Below, piece after piece: positions 12,233 through 28,302 of a stretch of 64,000 nucleotides of DNA (position 1 is the first letter of the stretch; every line of letters starts with the position of its first letter). Source of the stretch: Mycoplasma buteonis (GTDB lineage: Bacteria > Bacillota_I > Bacilli_A > Mycoplasmatales > Metamycoplasmataceae); the NCBI RefSeq assembly GCF_000733865.1, contig NZ_JPOK01000007.1, positions 37,892 to 101,891 on the forward strand, written 5' to 3'. The position numbers and the translations under genes were made by a program. Under the pieces are notes generated by a model, which was not told the DNA's origin, did no database searches, and worked only from the letters and a program-made list of their open reading frames with translations.

Positions 12233-13579
12233 TTATTTTCAGAATTCTTCTTTTCATTTTACAACTTCTTGTGGAGTCGCTAAAACATAATGATCATCAT
12301 TTATTTTAATTCATTCTGGTTGAATTTCATCAGTATAACCGTGATCTAGCGGGTTATATACATACCCAATCAAAGAACCTTTTGTTCCGTGAATTGAAGG
12401 CACAGCATCAAGTAAGCTCTTAGTATAAGGGTGTAATGAATGATTCATAATTTCTTCTGTTTTACCAATTTCAAGAAGTCTTCCACGGTTCATAACAGCA
12501 ATACGGTCAGAAATATATTCAACCATACGTAAATCGTGGGCGATAAATAAAATTGTTAAGTTATATTTTTCTTTTAGTTCATTAAAAATATTAACTACTT
12601 GAGCTTGAATAGAAACGTCAAGAGCAGAAATAGGTTCATCGGCAACAAGAAGCTGTGGACGTAAAACTACTGAACGAGAAATACCGATTCTTTGTTGTTG
12701 TCCTCCAGAAAATTCTAATGGATAACGTCTTAAAACTGCTTCATCTAAACCAACACTTTTAAGCATTTCCACTACTAAAATTCTCTTGCATTCTTTTTCA
12801 CTTAATTTTGAAAGCTCTTCACGTTCTGCTTTTTTATCAGTAAGTCATTTTGCCGCTTCATGTAAATTTGCTTTCGCTAAATCATTAAGCATATTTACAT
12901 ATAAAGCTTCAAAACTAGCTACTTCATTTTCAGCAATTTTAAAGCCTAAATTTCTTTTGTAATCACCAAAGAAATTTGGATGTTTTTTAGCATCAAGAAA
13001 GTTTTGATAAAGCTCTTTTTCAATTTCTTGATCTATATTATATAAATAGATTTCTTTTGAATTTTTAGTATTTTCTAATCCTTCAGAAACTACTGCTTCA
13101 ACGTTAACATGCGGATTTAAAGAGTTAGCAGGATCTTGGAAAATCATTTGAACTTTATTAACCATAAAGTTTTCGATTTCCTTATACTCTTTTAAAGCTT
13201 TACCAAATTTAAATCCACGTTTGAGTTTTTTCGGTAAGGTTTTTTCAAGTAATTTGATTTCACCAAAACTATAAGGAACAAGACCAACTAAAGTTTTACC
13301 AATAGTACTTTTACCACTTCCGGATTCACCAACAAGCCCTAAAACTTCACCTTTATAAATATTAAGTGAAAAATCTGAAACAGCTTTAAAAGCTTTTGAA
13401 CCACTACCATAAGTAATATCTACATTACGTAATTTAACCAAAATTTCTTCATCATGCTTTGGTGTAAGCATGTCTTCAATTCCGTTAGTTAAATAACGAT
13501 AATATGTCACTTCACCTAGTAACTTACGTTTTGTTTCAGTATACATAGGTTTATCTAAAATAACTTTTTTATCTTCCAT
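12233..13579 (-). CDS. oppF: Oligopeptide ABC transporter ATP-binding protein OppF
   Basis: One of the two ATPases that power oligopeptide import by OppBC. The 448-aa protein has Walker A GESGSGKS at residues 84-91, Q-loop FQDPANSLNP near 148, signature FSGGQ at 290-294, Walker B LLVADE at 310-315, and the His switch in IAHDLRMVEYISD. About 110 residues, largely Lys/Glu/Leu, are inserted between the Q-loop and the signature; together with an N-terminal extension this makes it longer than the roughly 310-330 residues usual in other bacteria. TGA-coded Trp residues lie inside and near the end. Last gene of the operon; it starts 2 bases after the oppD stop. Confidence 0.93.
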
Positions 13580-13581
13580 AA

Positions 13582-14838
13582 TTATTTGGCTTGATAAATA
13601 ATTTTCTTGCTTCCTGTTTTTGGATTAGTAGCAACAATTGTTTGAAAATTATTTTTAGCTAGATATTCCTTTCATAATTTAGCAATAACTTTTGGTGGTT
13701 CATATGTTGGAGCATTAACATCAAGTAATGCACTTTTAACACGGTGTGTATCAGAAATATAGTAAAAATCTGGTTCTTTTTCAAAATCAATACCTAAAGC
13801 ATAATCATTTCTAGGTGCAAAAGCATCACCTACAATATTATTTAAGCTAGCAGGAACACTTCCACGAATTGTCTTTAATCTTGTTCCTGTATTAACATCA
13901 GGCATACTTGAAATCAATCCTCAAGTATATGGGTGTTGTGGGAACTCAAGAATTTCTCTTGCAGTTCCTTCTTCAATAATTTGACCTGCATACATAATTG
14001 AAATGTAATCACTAATTGAAGCAACAACTCCTAAATCGTGAGTAATAAAGACAATTGATAATTTTAATTTTTCTTGTAAATCTTTAATAACGTCTAATAC
14101 TAACGCTTGCACTGTTGGATCAAGTGCTGTTGTCGGCTCGTCCATAACTAAAATTTTAGGTTCAAGAGCCACAATAGCAGCAATAACAACACGTTGAATC
14201 ATTCCACCTGACATTTCGTGTGGATATAACTTCATAACAGCTTCTGGATCAGCAATTTTAGTTAACTTTAAAAACTCAATAGCTCTAGCGTATGCTTCTT
14301 TACGATTTTTAACAACTTTGTTAATTAGCATACCTTCCATGATTTGTTCTCCGACTTTCATGGTTGGATTTAAAGTTGACATTGGGTTTTGGAAAACTGC
14401 TGAAACTACTTTTCCTCTGTATTTTGAACGTTCTCAATCCTTTAAAGTAAATTCTTCTACGTTGTTATTATAAAGTTTAATTTCACCAGCATCTATCACA
14501 GAGTTATCACCAGTTAAACCATATAAAAGTGAAGTAATAACACTTTTACCACTTCCTGATTCACCGATGATAGCGTGAACTTTACCTTCATAAATTTGAA
14601 TACTTGGTCCACGAAGAACTTTATTTTTTTCTCCAGGACGAGCTGGGTTAGTAAATGATAAATAAATATCTTTAATCTCAGCAGCTATTTTTAATTTTGT
14701 TCCATCAGCAAATTCTTTATATTGCACATCTTTTGTAAACTCTTCTCAGTTGAAAACTTTTTCTCTTTTGCTTGAAAAATTCAGAGAATTTAGAAAACCT
14801 TTTAAGGCAGATACATGTTTTTTCTTGTTTTGTGACAT
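13582..14838 (-). CDS. oppD: Oligopeptide ABC transporter ATP-binding protein OppD
   Basis: Partner ATPase of OppF. The 418-aa protein has Walker A GESGSGKS at residues 92-99, Q-loop around VFQNPMSTLNP, signature MSGGM at 209-213, Walker B ILVMDE at 229-234 and His switch FITHDLGV. The C-terminal oligopeptide/dipeptide transporter extension (QHPYTW..., then ISSMPDVNTGTRLKTIRGSVP) is present and includes a Pro-rich loop typical of OppD. The ATG at 14838 has AGGAG upstream. Three TGA codons read as Trp join what would otherwise look like three fragments. It sits between oppC (8-base gap) and oppF (2-base gap). Confidence 0.93.
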
Positions 14839-14846
14839 TATAACTC

Positions 14847-15875
14847 CTATCTTTGTCTTCTAAGTGCATCTTGCACGCTAGCTCCAATAAGTTGCACGCT
14901 AGCTGTAATTGCAACTAAGAATGTTGAAGGAACAAAAACGTATCTTAAGAATGTTGGGAATATTTTTTGTCCTTCTGAAATTAAGTTTCCAAGAGTTGGC
15001 ACATCATCAATAGCTAAACCAATGAAGGCTAAAGAAGTTTCTGATAAGATAACACCAGGAATAGTGAAAACTAACTGAGTAATTAAAATAGGTAAAATAA
15101 CTGGTACATAATTTTTTAATATTTTGTACATTGGAGTACCTAGCACTTTTGAAGCCGCAACTCATTCTAAATGTTTGGCACGTTTAACTTGAGCACGAAT
15201 TTGGTTTGCCATTCCGATTCATCCTGTTAATGAAAGAGAAAAGACAACAACTCAAAAGCTAGGGCTTAAAATAATAGTAAGAAGAATTAAAATAATAATA
15301 CTTGGAACAACAGAAATAATTTTAATTATAAAAGTCATGATTTTATCAAATAACTCAAATTGTCCCATCATAATACCGATACTTAATCCAATTACAACTT
15401 CAATAGCAGTAACAACTAGCGAAAGAGCTAGTGAATAACGCATACCTCATCATAAACGAGCTCAAAAATCTCTACCTACACTATCTGTCCCTAAAATATG
15501 GTAAATTTGACGTGAATCTGTTTCACCAATAGTTAAATTTTTATCAAGAACATATGAAGAGTTAGGATCTTGAGTGGTAAACGGAATAATTAATGCAGCA
15601 ATAATAATTGAAACTAAAAGTAAAAATCCAAATACTCCTGCGAAATTTTGAGAAAAACGGTAAACAAATTCTTTGAATAAATTAGTTTCTTTACCTAAAT
15701 GACTACCTTCGTGGTATTCAAAAGTTTCACCAATAATTTTTCAAGCCTGATGGTTAAATGGTTGAGCAAGTGCACTAGGTCCATCTGCTGGCATTTTAGC
15801 TTCAGTTTGCTCTTTTTGACGTATTTTATCAGCTTTAACTTTTAATCAATTTGTAAGCTTATTATTTTTAGCCAT
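14847..15875 (-). CDS. oppC: Oligopeptide ABC transporter permease OppC
   Basis: Membrane permease that pairs with OppB. The 342-aa protein has a charged N-terminal cytoplasmic region, a first membrane helix near residue 90 (IIAALIIPFT side), and a C-terminal binding-protein-dependent permease domain with several helices, including VVIGLSIGIMMGQFELFDK and VPSIIILILLTIILSP, and an EAA-type loop (AASKVLGTPMYKILKNYVPVI). The ATG at 15875 overlaps the oppB TAA by one base and has GGAGAGG upstream. Several TGA codons encode Trp. Confidence 0.9.
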
Positions 15876-16915
15876 TATTTACCTCTCCTTCTAACTCTAG
15901 GATCAATTGCTTCATATAGAATATCCCTTGTTGCATAAGAAAGAATTGTAAGTAAAGCAAAAATGATAATTAAGAATAAAATAACGTTGTAATCCTTAGT
16001 TTGGATCGCTTGTAATAAGGTTGCTCCAGAACCAGGAATGAAGAAGATTTGTTCAATGAAAATACTTCCAATAAATGAACCGAAAATTACAGCCGGGAAG
16101 AAAGTAGCAATTGGGAAAAGTGCTGGTTTCAGAGCATGTTTTCACACAAAACGACTTTTTGTCAACCCTTTTAAATAAGCAAATTTAGCATGTACTGAAT
16201 TTAACTCACGGTTTAATTCAGTACGGATATATTTAATGTACACGATAATACTTCCAAGTGATAAAGCAATTCCAGGAAGAATATAAGTACTAAAATCATT
16301 TGCATCAAAAACATATGGTAAGCCAATTACACGTCCAATAAAAATTAAAAGCAGTGCAAAAATAATTGATGGAACTGATGAAAAAATACTTACAAGTACA
16401 GTTGCTACGTTATCCACAATACCACCTGGATTTTTACCAACTCAAATTCCAAGCGAAATACCAATTGTCACAGTTAAGAAAACTGAAAAGATACCAACAA
16501 GGAATGATTTATAAAATCTCGTTCAGATGAAATCATTAATTTCTTGTCCTGGGAATAATGATAATGAAATACCAAAATTACCATGGAATAATTGATAAAT
16601 ATAATTTAAATAACGCTGCATTAACGGTAAGTTTAAACCGTATTTTTGTTCGATTGCTTGACGAATTGCAGCATCTTTTGCTGACGCTACTAAAGAGTTA
16701 GAACCAGGAACAGCATTAATTAAGAAAAAGGTAATAGAGATAACAATTAAACCAATAATAAGAAACTCTGCAATTATTTTAATCATTTTTCAAAGTCCAC
16801 GTAAAATTGGTGAATCAATTGCTGTTAACTTTTTAAATAAAGTAAGTTCTTGATTACGAGTAGCTTTAAAAATTACTTTGTTATCGCTATGAATCATTTT
16901 ATTTTTTTTACTCAT
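15875..16915 (-). CDS. oppB: Oligopeptide ABC transporter permease OppB
   Basis: First permease of the transporter. The 346-aa protein has an N-terminal cytoplasmic stretch, a first helix (IIAEFLIIGLIVISITFFLI) leading into the OppB-typical NAVPGSNSL segment, further helices around IFSSVPSIIFALLLIFIG, and an EAA-type loop ending in a final helix, then the charged tail DPRVRRRGK characteristic of OppB/DppB proteins. The ATG at 16915 overlaps the oppA stop by one base (TAATG) and has the strong site GGAGGA upstream. TGA-coded Trp residues occur at several points. Confidence 0.92.
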
Positions 16916-19900
16916 TAACTGTGTCCTCCTACATTTCTTGGTAATCCTGGTCTTGGTGGTTTAGTTACATCATAAGCATATTGTAAATCGAAAGTGAAGA
17001 CAGATGAAATACCTGCAATTTTACTTACTTCTCAGTTAGTGTCAACTTCCATCAGTGGCACTACAAAGCTTGCATCACGAACAATTTTTTCATATGTTGC
17101 TATTAAACCGTAAATGTAATCTTGTGATCATCCTTGTTCAATTTCCTCATTAGTAAAGTTACCTGAAAAGAATGCGTTAAGACGATCTGAATATTGCTGT
17201 GTATTTTCTTCTAATCTTTGGTATCCTAAATCAATTGCTTTAAGTCAGAAGTTTAGTTTTTTGCCTGCCTTAGTTTCAACAATACCTTCATGTAATCTTG
17301 TACGTGCTTCAGCTGTTAATTGATCAATTTTTTCAACTCCATACTGAGTTAAAATTCAGTAAATTGCTGCATGACGTAGTTTAGTTTCTTTAATATTAGC
17401 ATTTTGAGTAGCTAAATATTGCAAGATATCTTTAATAAACTTATTAGTATATGTCGCTTTATTTACAATATCTGAACTTGCAATTTCATTTGCAAAAGTA
17501 TCAGTATATGTTTCGGCAAATTTAATAATTTCTGGTTTTGATTGTTTTTTATAAACTTGATCAAATTGTGACTTAATGTCGTTATTACTATTAATTTTTT
17601 CTTGAATTACATTAATTTCTGTTGCTAAAGCTCTTTCTAGTGAACCTTCGAATAATTTATCCACTACTAATTTTGTGAAGTAATCACCGTAAGTATAATC
17701 ACCTGTCGGATTATCTTTGAATCCAAATTCATTTCCTTCTAATGAGTTAATTCCATCACGTTTAAAGAAAGCTGAAATATAATCCTGTGGTGAGTTACCA
17801 CCAATTTTATCGTAGTTTTGGTAAACAAAATCAAATTGTCCTGTTTCGTAGTAACTTCCAAAAACGTTTTCAGGTAAGCTCTTGATTTCTACACGAATAA
17901 ATCCGTTACTCATAGCTTCAATTTTTTCTTTTAAGAATTGTCCAGCTTTCTTTTGTTCATCAGAAGAATTATTTAAGTATTTTAAAGTGATTCCTTCTAA
18001 TCCAGGGTGAGCTTTTTTAAACTCTTCAAGGTAAAATTGTGCTGTTTTTAAATCAAAAGCGTAATCTTTTCTCACTGTATTTTCAAAGTTATAGCTTTTT
18101 GATAAGTGAACTATGTAATCATAGTTAAGTAAATCAAAAGTTTTACCATTTTTAGCATCAATTTGCTTTTGATTAAAGAACATTTCTAAGTTTCTTCCAT
18201 CAAAAGTTTTATATTGACCGTATGCTGTTCAGTTATTAACTGGGAATGAGAATTCTCATCCAACATATCTAAGCATTTCTTCACGGTCGAGAGCATAATA
18301 AATTGCATTACGGATATTTTGATCTTGAATATAGCTGTTAGCATTTGTTTCAGGGTCTAAGTTAAACCCAAGAGCAATAGTTCCATATCCATTATTTTTC
18401 TTTAAATATTCTTTAGTTGCTGGATTAGTTCAAAAGTTATTGATCTCTGTTCCAGGAATAATAGTTTGTGAAATATATCCATCTTTAAAGAAGATTGCAT
18501 TAATATTTTTTTCAGTTGAAAATAAAATCTTAATTTTTCTTGGGATAACATTTTCTACATCAAAATAATCTTTATTTTTTGTTAAAACAATATTTCCTTG
18601 AGGACCAAGAACAACATCACTTGGTTTCATAACAAATGGGCCACTAGTTAAAAATTTCTCAGCAGTAGTTCCATAATCAGAAATTCCACCAGTTTCAGTT
18701 TCGATGTACTTACGGTTAACTGGATATAACTGCATTAAAATGTGCCCTAGCAAGAAGTTTAAATCAGGTGTTTTATTTTCGTCAAAAACAACTGTAAATG
18801 AATTTTCATCAAATGCTAATGTTTTAATTTTTGGTTTTAATTCACGATTTACTGTATCTAAATCAAAAGCTTGGTAAGGGTTTAAATACACATTTTTGAC
18901 TAATTTAACAGTAACAATTTTATTTGCATCACTTGAATCACGCATTCTAAAATCTTGCGTCTCAGCTGTTAAGCTTAGCTGTGGATTTAAATCTAAGTTT
19001 TTAATAATATCTTCATTAGTATAATCAAGGAAAATTTGTCCAGTGTAAAAAGAGAATTTTAAAGCTGCATCTTTAATAGCTTGAACTTCTTTTTCGTCTC
19101 CTGGTACTTGTGATTGTCAAACTTGATAATTAGGATCTTGAACATATCTATATTTTGATAATTCACTTTTAATGTAAGGACGTCTACCTCATGGATTTTT
19201 ATAAAATTGTCCATGTTTTTTATTGTAATCTACTTGAGCGTTAGTAAATTCTTCTGCTCCTTGAATTGACATCTTTTTGATTTGGTCGAATTTTTCTGAA
19301 CCATTATTGTAATCTAAAATGTATTCAAGATAATCACGCATATCTTGAGCAGTTACAATATCACCATTTGATCATACGTTTTTACCATGATTAGTAATAC
19401 CTGTTACAGCCATGTAATTATTTGAGTTTTTAGGGTTCGGAAACGCATAAGTTGTTGCACCTTCTTTATAACCTTCACCTTCAGTTGCTCTTCCAAGACC
19501 ACCAAAAATTTGGAAATCGTGTAGTCCATAAACTGAACCTGGAACTTTACCATAACCGTTATCATCAGCTAATGCTGATGAACCGTTTGGAGCAGATGGA
19601 TTTTTCTTAGTTTTATTGAAAAAGTTATCAAAATTTGATGATCCTTGCCCAAGTCCTGTATCCATCACTGACATATTAAATTTAGAAGTATTTAAAACTG
19701 ATTTTAGAGCATCTGTAGGTCCATTTTTTAAAAAGGAATCAACTAAAGAAGGAGCTATTTTATTAACTGACTGTTTTAAAACGTAGTTTAAATTATTAAG
19801 TGGTTCAGTAGCTAAACCTAAATCATAGTCAGCTGCATCTAATTTATTAACATTGCTTGGTTGTGTTTCTTGCTCTTTTGTTGTAACACAAGCAGCAGAA

Positions 19901-19965
19901 ACAGCAGCAAGTGATGTAGCTGTAGCACTTAATAATAAACTAAAAAGTAATTTGCTTTTTTTCAT
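16915..19965 (-). CDS. oppA: Oligopeptide-binding lipoprotein OppA (large mycoplasma type)
   Basis: Extracellular substrate-binding component of the Opp importer. The 1016-aa protein starts MKKSKLLFSLLLSATATS and has lipobox VSAAC, so it is membrane-tethered. The body resembles family-5 solute-binding proteins, for example LTSGPFVMKPSDVVLGP followed by ILTKNKDYFD-like segments, and NIRNAIYYALDREEM downstream. It is about twice the usual OppA length, as in the hominis-group OppA of Mycoplasma hominis (P100), which also has surface ecto-ATPase activity; whether that activity exists here is not shown. The Shine-Dalgarno is AAAGGAGAG, in the 11-base gap after the PDxFFG gene. Confidence 0.9.
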
Positions 19966-19976
19966 AACTCTCCTTT

Positions 19977-22900
19977 CTATCCTAAGATGTTGAACTGATA
20001 ATCAATTGTGAATAATGTTTTACCAGTGCTATTCCCATTTTCATCAAGCTCTTGTTCTAATTTAATTGGTGCTTGTGAAACTAGTTTTCCGTTTTCCGCA
20101 AGCACAGGAACATTTCCTAGTGTCATGTCAGTTACTGTATTTTTATCAGCATCCGCAAATTCTACATAGTATGAAGATTTTGGAGCTAATAAACTACCAC
20201 GGTATTTTCCCATATAATCAAAATCAGAAATTCATGTTGAATATCCATAGTCTGCTAAAGTGCGTTTTGAACTAGCATCACCTTGTTTTGTTAAATAGAA
20301 AATATTATTTGTGTTACTTATGTTAATTGATAAGTAAGCAACATCTTTTGGATTATCTTTATTTGTAAATTTTAAGTATTTAATTCTATTTGCATGTTTA
20401 GTTTCAATATATCCATAAAGAGCTAAAGCATCAAAGTTTTTGTTTCTGAAAATTCCTGTAACGTTTCTATTTCCAACTCCAAAGTTTAAAAGCTGAGAAA
20501 CAAAGAATGCTTCAGGAACATTATCAACTAAAGTTTCTCCATCAAAAGCTGTTAAACGACGATCGTTTTCAGGAATTTGAACTGGATTTCCATAATCATC
20601 ATAAAGTTGCATGTCAATCATAGCTTTTTCTCAACGATCTTTAAAGTATCCGTTTGAATTTGCGATAAATTTACCAAAGTATGATGAATCTCTTTGTTCA
20701 GTTTGATCATTAGATAAGATTTTTGAATCAAAAATAACAAAATTTGAATGATTATCAATAACTCTTTGAATGTCGTCTGATAAGTCTGATAAGAATTTTA
20801 ATAACTCTGCTTTTGCTGTTTGTAAGTTTGAAATTAAAGCAGCAGAAAGTTCATGATCTGGTTCGTTTTTAGCATCCTCAATTGCTTGATTAATTGCTGC
20901 TAACTGAGGTTGTAATTTAGCTTGAGTTTTAAATGATTCACTACGCATTTTTTCAATTTCAGTTTGAGTTTTATTGAATAATTTTCATTGACTAATTGCA
21001 ATTTGAGCTAAATTAATTTGGTTATGATTTAGCTTTGTATCATTAATTTTATCTAACTGAGTAGCATCAACAATGTAATCCAGTCCTGTTGTAGCTTCAT
21101 TAACATTATTTAAATAACTTGGTAAGTTACCAAAATTTTTCACACTTGGAACATAAGTTGTTTGAACATAATCACGAGTTAATGTTTCTGGTAATGAATA
21201 AATATAATCAGTAAATTTATCGTTAATTAGAGGTTCAATTCTACTTAAGTTGTAACTTAAGAAATCACTTGAAGGCATACCTGTTGATGGATTACCAAAA
21301 GTAATGTTGCCATAAAAAGGACGCACGTTAACACCACGATTTCTAAGTTCCATAGTATTACCAATTAATTTGAAAAGATCAAAACTATTAATATTATTTA
21401 AATCCACTTGTTCAGTGATTCCTGCATCAATTGCAGTTTGTTTTATTAATTCTTGAAGTTTATCAGCTGTTAAACTAATTCTTTTATCTTTTTCAGGAAT
21501 AAAAGAAGCATCTTCATAATAGTTGTTTGCTAATTCAGGACTAAAAATCTTAAATCCAAATTCTTTAGATAAAATAGCTTGATTTTGCACTAAATCTGTG
21601 GTTGGATTAAAGTCTTTAACACCCAGTAAGAATGATGAAAATCTCATTCTTCTTATAATATCATTAGCAATTTCTTGATTATTAGTTAATTTATTAGCGT
21701 TAGACTTATCATCTTTAATTGCTGCTTGGACAAACTTATCAAAATCAAAGTAATTTTGTAAGTAATCAATATTAGCATTTCATTTAACTTGTTGATTATC
21801 ATTATCAAGCTCTTTTTTAGTAAATTGACTGTAATCAATTGTGAAAAAGTCTAGCATCTCTTCGAAATTTTTAAATACTAAAGCTTTTTCTTTATTTCCA
21901 TTATTTTTAATTTCTTGAAGGAATTTAGAAGCTGCTATTAATGGTGAAGTATCTGACATATTCACAGCACTAGGACGCACTACAACTTTTGAATCAGCAG
22001 CAGTTGGTTCACCGACAAATTCACCATGCGAATTTAAGTAACCGAAACTACGTAGTTGTTCACGGTTATGAGTAAATACTCATGAATCAAAACCTGTAAA
22101 GAACGCTCCGTATGGAACTGTTCATCTATATCTTTCAGCTGTTTCTTTAATTGAAGGAATATCACGGTACATATCCATTAATGATTTAGCATCAGTTGCA
22201 AATGGAAAACTATAACGCTTGTGACTACCATCTTTCTTACTAATTGAAACTACTGGGTTAATTCCAGCAAGTGCTCCATCGAAAGAATTACTTTTAATTT
22301 TAGCTGCATTAATTGAATCAATTTTATCAGGTAAACCATCATAGTTAGCTTTTGAGAAAAATTCTAAACGTGTAATGTATTGGTTTAAAGCGTTATTATC
22401 TTCACTTAAAGCTAAGTATGAATATGCTTTACGAGTTTTGTCGTTAATTGTAAATCCATATAAGTTATTCATTACATCAGTTTCAACATCATTTTTTCTG
22501 TTTTTAACTTCATCTCTTCACTCATTAAAGGTGTCACCTGCAGTAACTGAAGTTCAAGCAATTTTTGGATTACCACCAAGTACGGTTGCTGGTCCATCCC
22601 AACCGCTATCATAACCATGATCACGAACAAGGTTCATAATACTGTCGTTAATTACTGCGATTTTCTTATTAACATACTCATATGAGTTATGATCTAATAA
22701 TTTGTAAAGTGGCACATCAATAACAGGTGTACCGTCAGCATTAAAGACATTAACTTTAGTAAACATTGTTCTACCATTAACAGTAGTACTTTCCACAATT
22801 TTTAAAGTCACATGTCCAGCATCATCAACTGTGTAAGGAATGTGTTGATTTACACCATCAACAACAATGTTCATAATTCTTTCTTCTGAAATTGGCTCGA

Positions 22901-25331
22901 ATTTAGTTTTTTGTCTACTATCAAATGATAAAATAGTTCCATCAATAAATGGGTTTAATGTTCCTGAGTTACGGTCAAAAGAGTTTGCGATAAATAAATC
23001 ACCAAGACGTACATCTCTTAATTTCGCCACTTCTTTCATTGATTCATAACTTTGTAAAAATCTACGAGCTTTATTATCAACTACATCAAAAACATTGTCA
23101 GTTTTTTCAGCTGAACCTCATACATCAGCTTCAGTTTCTTTATATCAATCATTTGAGCTAACTTTCTTAAATTTAAAGTTAATGAATTCACCATTAGGTT
23201 GCTCATTCCCTAACGCATCGACACGAACAATATCTAAGTTTGTACGTGCTTTAAGATAGTTCATTAATCCTTCAATTCCGTAGTAAGATTGAATATTTAC
23301 ACCACCACGTGTACTTAATCCACCTACAACAACTGAATTATTTTGATTATTTAAAGCTTGTGTACCTTCAAGTGTATAGTGGTGTCCATATTCATGGGCT
23401 CCAACGTATTTTAAAAAGTCCGTTGAAATTCCTTCATACTCATCAATAAAAGCATTAAGCACTAACGGAAGACCAATACGATCACCATCATTAAGTCCTT
23501 TGTATGGACCATCAACTACTTTATATTCATAGAAACCTTGATCATTAAGAACTTGTTCAACGTGTGGTCCATTATATTCTTTAACTAAGTGTGGATACTT
23601 AGTTAAAATAATGTCTAATAAACCTGAGTAAACTTCATTGTAAAGTTGATAGTTACGTGCTGCTAAACCACGAATTTGATTTCCGTTAGCATCTTTTAAT
23701 GTAATATTTTCAGGTCCAGCTGATAGTACTGTTGGTCTAATTGCACCTTTGTAACCTAAAGCTTGTTTGAATTGGAAAAATTCCATTTTTGCTTCTAATT
23801 CATTTAAGTCTCCAGAGTTAAATGCAATAACTTTTTGTTTTGGACTTTCACCAGCTGTTTTTGAATTTTGCTTATCTAAGTAAGCGTATAAAATGTAGTT
23901 TCCATCAGAAAGTTTTTCTTTTTTGAAGTGATTTACTTTATACGCAATTGACTTATCTAAATCTTTGATTTTTAATGAATCTTGTGCTTTTGCTAAAGAA
24001 TCATAAAAGAATCTTTTACCATTTTTTTCATAAACATAGATGTTAGCACCTATAAAGTTATTAAAATCATAAAAATCTAAAAAGTTTTCAATTTGTGATT
24101 CGACAGTATTTTTGTATGTTTGCAACGAAACTAAATCAAAGTAGGTATCAGGAACTTCTTTGTAATAGTGATCAAAACCTGCAGTATTTTCACCTTTATC
24201 AAATGAAACTTTCATAGTAATAGGTGTTTTTCTACCTGAAGGATCAAAAGTTGCTTCTTTTGTTACGTCTGCAACTTGATAAAGTTCAAATTGATCAAAA
24301 GTTACATTTTGATATAACTCTGGGTTTGCACTAGCTATCTGGTTAAATTGCTCTGCTGTTGTATCTTTTGGTAAAACTAATAATAATCCTTGCGAAATGG
24401 AATTTTCACTACTTAAAGCAACTTTACGTAAATTTTCTTCTGAATCATTACGGTAAACTAAAAATTCTTTGTCAAGTAAACGACCAGGCATTAATAGTCC
24501 ATTAAAGAATTCGATATTTGGACGACGATCTCTAGCTGCATTGCTATTGCTATCTAAATATGACTGAGTAAATGAGTTTTCACGGTTATTTAAAATGGCA
24601 CTAGCAAGTGGAATATTAGTTAAAAATTCTTCTAATGTCTCTAAATTAACATTTGATTGGAAAGCACTATATGTTAATGAATCAGGAGCAAGTCCTCGTC
24701 CACCAGCTACTGAGAAAATTGGTAATGAACCAAAGAAAGCATCAGGGAAGAATTTAATTTCACTAGATTCTTTACGATCAGTAGAGTGTGAACCAAGTGT
24801 AATTGAGTTACCATGTTGCTCAGCTCCACGCACAATTCTAAAGCTTTCTAATGTTAGAATATCAGGTCCTCAAGCAACATTATTCATGAATCATTTAGTA
24901 AAATCAATAAATTGTTTTGGACGAACAGCTAAAACATACTCATCATAAAAACTAAATGAAGCATATTTAACTTCTAAAATAAAATCTTCTTGATAAATTT
25001 CGTAGTATTTCTTAAAGAAAGTATCTAAATCCATTTTTTCTTCTGGATTGTCTACAAATCAATAAAGAGTTCCATCTTCATTAATGTCAGCTACTTTATG
25101 GTTTTTAAGTGGGTTAAGGATAGCTAAAGTAGGTGTTAAGTCACCTTTTTCATTTCTAATTAAAGAGTAGTTATTTGCTAACTCTTCTTTTGTATATGGA
25201 TTTTTAGAACCTTTAACCTCGTCAGAATTCTTTGAATAAGCATACATCGCACCATAAGTTGCACCAAAACCAATTCCGATTAAACCAAGCGAAATTAATG
25301 TTTTAGTTGATAAACTTAGTTTTTTTGCCAT
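19977..25331 (-). CDS. PDxFFG-family membrane-anchored protein with zinc-protease motif
   Basis: A 1784-aa protein, one continuous frame once TGA is read as Trp (more than ten internal TGA). Residues 9-32 form an uncleaved signal anchor (LISLGLIGIGFGATYGAMYA) with no lipobox, so the bulk should be extracellular. PDAFFG at residues 196-201 matches the name-giving motif of the mycoplasma PDxFFG family. VGAHEYGHHYT, with HEYGH at 646-650, fits the HExxH zinc-binding site of metallopeptidases; the third ligand was not identified. The rest has no recognised domain. The ATG at 25331 has GAAAGGAG upstream. The stop is 11 bases before oppA, so it is the first gene of the opp operon. Peptidase activity and a role in feeding Opp are inference. 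Confidence 0.8.
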
Positions 25332-25359
25332 AGAATTCTCCTTTCAATTAGGTATTTAA

Positions 25360-25400
25360 TAAAAAGCAACAAACCATATTAACAAATATGGTTTGCTAAT
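25360..25400 (-). terminator. Terminator after the 965-aa lipoprotein, before the opp operon
   Basis: On the minus strand, a stem of about 11 bases (AAACCATATT / AATATGGTTT) with a short loop, then GTTGC and a T-rich tail. It separates the lipoprotein from the PDxFFG-opp operon. Only about 30 bases lie between the hairpin and the PDxFFG start, so the opp promoter must overlap it, or the operon depends partly on read-through. Confidence 0.7.
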
Positions 25401-25404
25401 TTAT

Positions 25405-28302
25405 TTATTTAATATATTCGTTTTGTAAAAAGTCTAATACATCATAGCTAGCAAGCTCAGTAGCGTATAGACTAGCAAGTTTTAAAGGACTTAAGCTAAC
25501 TAATTTTCCACTTTCATAATGTGAAGTATTAAATTTAGCATAAGCTGAACGTGAAAATGTATAGTGTTTGTCATTTAAAACATCATAGTATGCTTTTCTA
25601 GCATTATCAAGTGCTGTTTTTAATGCATCTGTATTTTCATTTTGCACTTTTGCTTGATAGTAAGCTTCGTATGCTTCAAAGTATTCTTTTTCTTTTTCCA
25701 GTACTAAAACCTTGATTTTATCTGAAGTGTAAGCTGAATCAATTTCATCACCATTGTATGCAGCATCTGTTGGATTAATATCATCAATATCTAAGTTTGT
25801 AATGTGGATATATGGTTTTGTTGAAGTGTCTTCGTGTCCAAATTTTCATTCTTTTGAATATTTTTTGAATAACTCAACAGCTTCACGATCAGGATCTTTT
25901 TCAGAATCTAAATCAATAGCAGCTAAATTAGGACGATATTTAATGTTTCATTGTCTAATAAATGCATATAATTCTTGGTTTGGAACTGTATAGTATTTTG
26001 GATTTGCATCAGTAGAAGCTGAATCATAAGCTGCTTGTTTTTGTTTCAGTTCTTCTTCTGCAGCTTTTAAGTCCGCGATAACTGTATTTTTTCTTTGAAC
26101 GGATATGTCATCTTTTAAATCTGCAGCAAAAGATTTATCACTGTAAGAGAGTTCTGTTTTTGAGTTTAATTCTTCATAACGATTTTTAATTTCTGAATAT
26201 TTTGTTTCATAATAATCTTCAAAAAAGTACTCGTATTCAGTTCAAGATTCATATTTTGAATCCATGTTATTTTGGATATCTTGAATTTTGTCAAAAGCTT
26301 CTTTTAAATCTGTAATAAATTTTTTGTAAGCCGCTAATTTTTCTTCATCACTAGTAGAAGAACTGTTTAAATCAGGTAAAACAATAGCATCAGTAATTGG
26401 ATAAATTTTTTCTTCAAAAAACTCTTTTGCTAATTTTTTATCATTAAGATCTGATTTTGCTTGATTTAATCTTTTAAGTAATTTTTCAGGTTTAGATTTT
26501 AAATTAAATAAAGCTTCCATTTCATCTGATTTCGGATCAATACCAACAAATTCTCAGTAATTGTATAGCTGACTCATGTGAGTTACATAGCTAAATACTA
26601 AATTTAAAGCAATAAATTTATCAAAAGCTTCTACATAGTTATTTTCTGTCATTCTTTTTGCAGAATTAAAGTACTGATTGATGTTATCTCTTAAATCTAC
26701 AAAAGGAGTATAAGAAGCATCATCCGCAAATTCTTTATTTGCTTTTTGGTTAATAGGCTTCATTAACTCATTAATCTTTGTTAAAAGCTCAGCATTTTTA
26801 TTTTTAATTTCAGTAGTTTTGCTTTCCACTTCACTGCTATTAACAGCTAAAGTTTTTACACCTTCAGTTGCTTCAGTAAATGTCCCAAGTACTTCATAGT
26901 AAGTTCTTGCATCTGCATTGTATTTGTAATTTAATGAATTTTCAACAAATTTATCTCATTGGTTATAAACTTTTCTAAAACCAATTGAATTTAAGTATTT
27001 GTGTCCTTCATTTCTTTTGAATGCTCCAAGTTGAGCTAGTACGTTGTTGTAGTAAACGTCAAGTTTTGCTGTTTTTTCGTTTTCTAATAAACGACTATAA
27101 AGTGGATATTCAGTCATTTTTAAAGAAACTTTTAAAAATGGAGCAAATTCATCATTAACAAATTTATTTAATAAGTTTGGTAATGTGTATTTTTCTTCAA
27201 TTGAAATATAGCTAAATAATTGATCAGCATAGTTTTTAGCTTTAGCTTTACTATCTTCATAAAGTTTTTTAACTTCTAAAATAGTTAAAGCAATTCCGTT
27301 TTGGAATTCTTCTGCTGTTTTTTCATTTTGAGTTGCGATTTCTGAATATACATCAGAATTATTTGCAACTACTGCATCATGTAAAGCTTGTAAGTTATAA
27401 ATTCTTCAATCATATAAAGCTTCTAAAAATTTACTTTTTGGAAATGGTACATCATAAGGGAAAATAGACTTATATTGGCTAGCAAGCTTTTTAATTCTAT
27501 CCATTGTAATAGCTAAATCCACTCTAAAGTGCTTTCTAGTAGCAAAACGTTCTTGAGATTTCTTAGTTTCTTCTAAAGCTAATTCAGTTGATGTTTTTAA
27601 ACCTTCTAAAGTTTCCTTTAAAGAATCAATTGCTTTTTGTGTTTCTTCATTTGCTGTTGGAAACTTACCTAAAAATTCAATTAGTTCACCATATCAAGTA
27701 ATTAAGTATTTTTGAGCTTCAATAAGTGCTAACTTTCCTGAAAGTTGTCTTGGTAAAAAGTTTTTAGTAATTTCTTCGTTTTCTGTAGCTGCGCCACTAG
27801 ATGTATTTTGTGTAGCAATTTCTAACTCATGTTGTAATCTTTCAATTTGATCTTTTAATTTTTGATTAGCAAGCTTTTGACTATTTAAACTTTCATCAAT
27901 GACTTTTAAACTGTTTTCTAAGCTAGTTGAATTAGTATCTTTTTTAGATAATTCTTTTTGTGATTTATCGATTACAGCAAGTAAGTTATCAGCTCATTCT
28001 TTCATTTTGCTATCATTGAATTTTTTTAGTGAACTTAAAACTTCATTTTTTTCGTTTGAATTTTTTGCATTTTGATACTTAATTTTTAGCTCAGCATATT
28101 TACTGTTTGCATCAACAAAAAATTCAGGACTAATTTCTGAATTATTCATTGAATTTAAAAAATCTTCAGTACGTGCAGATTCGTTTTTGAAAGCATCATC
28201 ATTTTTTTGTGATTGAGCGTCATCATTTATACATGATGTTAAAATAGGTGAAAGTGCTAAAAATGAAGCACTTATAGATGTTAAAAGCATTTTTTTCTTC
28301 AT
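25405..28302 (-). CDS. Surface lipoprotein, 965 aa, helical, function unknown
   Basis: Lipoprotein signal MKKKMLLTSISASFLALSPI with lipobox LTSC, Cys at residue 24. The mature part is nearly all predicted helix with extended coiled-coil segments rich in Glu, Lys, Asn and Leu; no enzymatic motif was seen. A middle stretch (about residues 100-490) contains repeated Tyr/Phe-rich helical hairpins but no exact repeat. The ATG at 28302 has AGAGGAAA upstream and a TATAAT box 40 bases before it. Scattered TGA codons are Trp. It lies directly upstream of the PDxFFG-opp operon in the same direction, separated by a terminator-like hairpin. Confidence 0.82.

Follow-up and report, generated by a model that had tools for sequence, protein, structure and literature searches.

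A giant PDxFFG protein paired with OppA in mycoplasmas as a candidate surface zinc endopeptidase feeding peptide import

The PDxFFG gene and the opp genes of Mycoplasma buteonis

In a 64,000-nucleotide stretch of the Mycoplasma buteonis genome (contig NZ_JPOK01000007.1, hereafter the window), the gene of a very large protein of the PDxFFG family stands directly before a set of genes for the Opp peptide importer. The PDxFFG gene (19977..25331) encodes 1784 amino acids from an ATG start and contains 13 TGA codons, and it is followed by oppA (16915..19965, 1016 amino acids), the permease genes oppB (15875..16915) and oppC (14847..15875), and the ATPase genes oppD (13582..14838) and oppF (12233..13579). 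All six lie on the minus strand, as do all features located below, and are readable only with TGA as tryptophan. Pfam matches identified the full importer set, namely a family 5 solute-binding protein (OppA, PF00496, E 2.3e-22), two BPD permeases (PF00528) and two oligo_HPY ATP-binding cassette (ABC) ATPases (each PF00005 and PF08352), and OppA has by eye a lipobox-like N-terminus (SAAC). From PDxFFG to oppF the intergenic spacings are 11, -1, -1, 8 and 2 bases; the 11-base gap before oppA (19966..19976) holds its ribosome-binding site AAAGGAG at 19970-19976, and the same sequence precedes PDxFFG (25338..25344). An earlier first-pass annotation had described a 1784-amino-acid protein with an HEYGH motif, oppA 11 bases further on, and genes through oppF that overlap or nearly touch, all of which is borne out by the open reading frame (ORF) coordinates and by the motif at residues 646-650. 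Across the genome of the window, PF00496 and NF012210, the NCBIfam model named PDxFFG, each gave a single match.

The 1784-residue protein belongs to NF012210 by score (346.6 bits versus a curated cut-off of 150, E 9.2e-104, residues 3-293, 24453..25325) and also carries the name-giving motif as PDAFFG (residues 196-201, 24729..24746), while a Pfam scan of the same protein returned no family. A hydrophobic segment at residues 9-32 (25236..25307) was judged by eye to be an uncleaved signal anchor without a lipobox cysteine, from which the protein is predicted to be extracellular and anchored at its N-terminus. NF012210 is a family name without a function, and the one paper found under the PDxFFG name states that the function remains to be determined; what the present comparison of sequences adds to NF012210 is the link to oppA and a conserved HExxH with a glutamate as a putative metal site.

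PDxFFG and oppA are paired across mycoplasmas

A protein database search with PDxFFG returned 66 proteins, query included, found by word matches over the whole chain, and a contig search with a 43-row alignment gave 41 named loci, each with up to 10 kb on either side. Two peptide patterns, [AT]HEYGHHxT and F[FY]PDAFFG, guided the contig scan, and loci with neither would have been missed. ORFs of the loci were predicted under translation table 4, and their labels come from BLASTP comparison with the window proteins. Alignment A1 comprised 43 of the 66 proteins, A2 18 of about 40 OppA proteins, A3 the window, 40 of the 41 loci (all but L068) and 25 of the 65 other database proteins, and A4 the window with 37 of the 41 loci (L038, L049, L063 and L068 left out).

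In two loci (L037, L067) the contig ends inside or just past PDxFFG, leaving 39 with downstream sequence. In 38 of these PDxFFG is followed immediately by oppA, with nominal spacings between -35 and 32 bases, and the sole exception was Mycoplasma sp. Ms02 (L059), where two ORFs separate the genes. Two operon orders were found: 27 loci read PDxFFG-A-B-C-D-F and 11 read B-C-D-F-PDxFFG-A (Ms02 is counted among the latter, with D and F swapped), and three fitted neither category. When operon order was mapped onto an OppB tree built from 36 loci, two changes were needed (two to three over bootstraps), with the rows involved in them (L044, L059) on long or moderately supported branches. Since both orders retain PDxFFG-oppA, the conserved unit is the pair and not the whole cluster. 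The clusters of M. bradburyae and M. imitans nest within Mycoplasmopsis-type clusters on this tree, in agreement with a proposal in PMC5797395 that one M. gallisepticum opp operon derives from the Hominis group. Second clusters with a PDxFFG and an OppA of their own were present in Mycoplasma sp. CSL7491-lung (L038, L066) and Ureaplasma diversum (L044, L050).

The same pairing was evident at the level of whole genomes. NF012210 was positive in 51 of 198 genomes of the order, and a long-OppA profile gave a long match in the same 51 (split in two for G142 and G063), so that joint presence was 51/51 versus 0/147; four other genomes had only short, weak long-OppA matches (E 1.3e-14 or weaker). These counts exclude, for NF012210, a duplicate row for one gene in G187 and a weak one in G113, and for OppA short pieces (G038, G063) and weak genomes (G015, G022, G059, G189). 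When 392 genomes of the phylum were sampled, the HEYGH-region profile matched 81 of them, in one case weakly and partially (G123, E 3.6e-4); the OppA profile matched the remaining 80 together with 45 partial or weak matches, of which only G424 (E 3.7e-31, a 365-amino-acid frame) belonged to the same family. Fifty of the 80 were already in the order draw and the phylum counts therefore use just the 30 new genomes, with a duplicate row of one gene dropped in G445; both genes were present in 30/30. For 53 of 55 PDxFFG copies in the order draw and 31 of 32 among the 30 new genomes, OppA lay just downstream on the same strand. Adjacency was scored by distance and so includes G021 despite an intervening 122-amino-acid ORF. 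Of the three non-adjacent copies, one is explained by a contig break (G124), and the other two are additional copies in G193 and G407, genomes that each also have an adjacent pair. The first-pass annotation had proposed looking for PDxFFG-oppA adjacency in other mycoplasmas, and at 38/39 loci and 84/87 copies the result is stronger than it had called for.

Genera were not uniform in carrying the pair: in the order draw one genus (g1) had it in 26 of 28 genomes and another (g2) in 4 of 13, which suggests that both genes were jointly gained or lost more than once. Within one family (f1) of the order draw, 14 genomes lacked the pair and had no long OppA, yet each kept another OppD paralogue, so the pair is not a simple tracker of general peptide import. 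Taken from gene order and co-occurrence, it is very probable that PDxFFG and OppA form a unit.

A conserved HEYGH motif and a candidate third zinc ligand

Whether HExxH is conserved in PDxFFG homologues had been named as a check on the earlier proposal, and HEYGH was found in 66/66 of them, query included, as well as in every locus ORF covering the site. By chance, 0.014 HExxH motifs would be expected in the query's composition, and 73 of 5000 shuffles contained one. A 66-row alignment had 35 invariant columns. The invariant histidine, aspartate, glutamate or cysteine residues were H182, E188 and D197 in the N-terminal PDxFFG domain, and only H646, E647, H650, H651 and E732 in the 411-residue region surrounding HEYGH (residues 516-926, 22554..23786). 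In gluzincin-like peptidases (clan MA(E)), HExxH lies on a helix and a downstream glutamate serves as the third zinc ligand. Within the motif (23382..23396), H646 and H650 are the predicted zinc ligands and E647 the predicted catalytic residue; E732 (23136..23138), invariant in 66/66 rows and 82 residues past H650, is the natural candidate for the third ligand because the region has no other invariant acidic residue.

An AlphaFold2 model of residues 36-965 built with 66 rows had a predicted local distance difference test score (pLDDT) of 84.3 and a predicted template modelling score (pTM) of 0.79, with a pLDDT of 73 for the ten-residue block over HEYGH. In this model the motif lies within a helix (637-658, model numbering 602-623) and E732 between a strand and a short helix. 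Together, these features suggest with reasonable confidence that PDxFFG is a metallopeptidase with a predicted zinc site.

A proposed role in peptide supply and its alternatives

With the pairing very probable and peptidase activity likely, the simplest function for the two together would be breakdown of protein outside the cell to supply OppA. We therefore propose, as a reading we consider slightly likelier to be right than wrong, that PDxFFG is a membrane-anchored zinc endopeptidase paired with oppA which cuts extracellular proteins into peptides for OppA and OppBCDF. The N-terminal hydrophobic segment would hold the chain outside the membrane, zinc would be held by H646, H650 and E732, and water would be activated by E647; peptide products would pass to OppA translated from the same mRNA, perhaps by direct contact. 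OppA would bind these peptides and OppBCDF import them, and cytoplasmic peptidases, such as the product of a PepF-like gene elsewhere in the genome, would complete their breakdown. Published expression data are in line with this proposal: PMC10652285 reports the M. synoviae PDxFFG gene (VY93_RS01090) as the most significantly upregulated on chicken cells, together with increases in the ABC ATP-binding genes RS01085 and RS01080 and in RS01075, assigned to 'quorum sensing' in KEGG. In a M. synoviae-like cluster, in which PDxFFG shares 99% identity with the named M. synoviae protein, the order is oppB-oppC-oppF-oppD-PDxFFG-122-amino-acid ORF-oppA, and it would fit these consecutive tags if RS01085 and RS01080 were the oppF and oppD beside PDxFFG. 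The oligoendopeptidase F gene beside oppA in M. hyorhinis and the single PF01432 gene in the genome of the window, both described below, also count in its favour. That peptides from PDxFFG are fed to Opp is somewhat more probable than not, and we infer the protease activity, the host substrate and the hand-over to OppA. A bolder version, which we regard as tentative and somewhat more doubtful than sound, is that PDxFFG represents a novel metallopeptidase family of giant surface proteins, restricted to mycoplasmas and ureaplasmas, and is the obligate partner of the long OppA. Protease and peptide receptor would then make up one membrane-bound machine that shreds host protein and hands the fragments directly to the importer, and the whole cassette would be transferred between species together.

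Several results weigh against the proposed role. Motif conservation in the named loci is partly built in because these loci were fetched by the HEYGH and PDAFFG patterns. The aspartate at +4, which many gluzincins carry in an ExxxD pattern, occurs often here without being invariant. Residues 516-926 modelled alone reached a weak pTM of 0.45, and the HEYGH helix was seen again at low confidence. Foldseek and VIA-align gave no meaningful match and no peptidase among solved structures for either model, 38 PDxFFG members had no significant match to Pfam peptidase families, and a PDxFFG profile found no relative among the sequences of the Protein Data Bank (PDB). For a M. bovis transposon library, PMC4045577 lists an insertion in a hypothetical gene of 9,980 bp, ORF 0038; the M. 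agalactiae PDxFFG gene (L057) has a similar size of 9,981 bp. The same paper describes two opp operons without insertions, while oppF2, a further oligopeptide ATPase gene, was hit. If ORF 0038 is PDxFFG, for which the match is one of size only, it would be dispensable in rich medium. The single cut-bind-import system put forward in the first-pass annotation thus stands in part: the pairing with oppA, the conserved HEYGH and the invariant E732 speak for it, the fold searches do not supply a peptidase match, and its biochemical half is still predicted, although specific residues and a third-ligand candidate can now be named.

The failure to recognise a peptidase fold or family would suit a PDxFFG protein that is not an enzyme at all, being instead an accessory of the importer, such as a large surface capture protein, an adhesin or a docking scaffold for OppA, in which HEYGH is a structural metal site; the highly conserved N-terminal domain with its own invariant H182, E188 and D197 also fits. 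We consider this unlikely, as H646, E647, H650 and E732 fit a metallopeptidase site and are invariant despite divergence to about 23% identity, and a structural site would have no need of E647. A metallopeptidase that acts on its partner, so as to mature, shed or regulate OppA or other surface lipoproteins without producing food peptides, would explain why OppA is the tightest link, retained in both operon orders, and why the two are found in the same genomes; but maturation alone does not obviously call for a chain of 1000 to 3300 residues bearing long variable inserts, which makes this rather unlikely in our view.

We regard it as improbable that PDxFFG is a host-directed protease with an immune or matrix target that is merely co-regulated with opp. 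Its great length and variable inserts would be in keeping with exposure at the surface, and the upregulation of the M. synoviae gene on chicken cells reported in PMC10652285 would also fit such a role. Co-regulation alone, however, leaves unexplained both the retention of the pair through two operon orders and the second clusters of CSL7491-lung and Ureaplasma diversum with a PDxFFG and an OppA of their own.

The proposed peptide-supplying role has parallels in known systems. In lactococci, PrtP, a subtilisin-like serine protease of the cell envelope, makes oligopeptides which OppABCDF imports. The logic is alike, whereas PDxFFG has a predicted zinc site and its gene lies within the opp cluster; the Pfam scan found no subtilisin-like serine protease domain in the protein, making it an analogue of PrtP by logic only. 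The opp-pepO operon of Lactococcus also contains a metallopeptidase gene, although PepO is a cytoplasmic M13 enzyme that acts after import, whereas PDxFFG, with its anchor-like segment, would act before it. The window OppA, like that of Mycoplasma hominis (P100), is a mycoplasma OppA of an opp operon. The M. hominis protein is described in PMC3179953 and PMC4398514 as a substrate-binding ecto-ATPase and adhesin; a Walker A-like pattern occurred in 1 of 40 OppA proteins examined and was absent from that of the window.

Found in animal mycoplasmas, PDxFFG proteins are very large, and the role proposed here, if true, would likely be the first for a family without one. Their near-perfect pairing with OppA makes peptide supply from intact host protein directly testable in wall-less, amino-acid-dependent bacteria, and the test reduces to one enzyme, one active-site residue and one transporter.

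Operon boundaries, PDxFFG variants and neighbouring genes

A hairpin resembling an intrinsic terminator (25367..25398; 14 pairs, loop of 4, tail CTTTTTATTA) lies between PDxFFG and an upstream lipoprotein gene; ten such hairpins were found in the 17 kb scanned versus 5.3 expected. Only 35 bases separate it from the PDxFFG ATG, so that transcription would start near the T tail or some read-through would enter the operon. On this layout, PDxFFG is likely the first gene of the opp operon in the window. The upstream gene (25405-28302) encodes a predicted lipoprotein of 965 amino acids (lipobox-like SC, by eye) for which NCBIfam and Pfam scans gave zero matches. Among the 27 relatives in which PDxFFG comes first, the nearest upstream ORF of at least 150 amino acids was on the opposite strand in 11 and on the same strand in 15, with none in the fetched stretch in one. 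In four of those 15 (L055, L066, L068, L070) an ORF of 1037-1063 amino acids ends only 17-18 bases ahead of PDxFFG, and because of this spacing the operon there likely begins one gene earlier.

The length of PDxFFG differed widely among relatives, from 3100-3340 amino acids in seven loci (L046, L051, L053, L054, L056, L057, L060) to a 1040-amino-acid form in M. marinum (L072), and the added length of the longer homologues lies mostly between the PDxFFG motif and HEYGH. PDxFFG was split into two ORFs in M. iners (L061, 4568-13912) and M. marinum (L071, 9974-13050); the M. marinum ORFs share one base, indicating either a break or a protein in two parts. HEYGH was also kept in a second PDxFFG copy starting two ORFs past oppF (L074, in G193) and in a long ORF directly ahead of the oppA-adjacent PDxFFG (L077, in G407).

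Genes downstream were tabulated in 17 loci and eight proteins were scanned with Pfam. In M. hyorhinis a gene for oligoendopeptidase F lies 100 bases past oppA (L063, 20726-22555; PF01432, E 6.8e-62), in M. alligatoris an M42 aminopeptidase gene follows the opp cluster (L041, 15976-16998), and none of the other six downstream or intervening proteins scanned was a peptidase. The genome of the window has one PF01432 (PepF-like) gene, which lies outside the window about 6 kb from a second OppD paralogue (G000:C5:137539-138684 and C5:144431-145381), and from this proximity a second peptide-import cluster may have a peptidase of its own.

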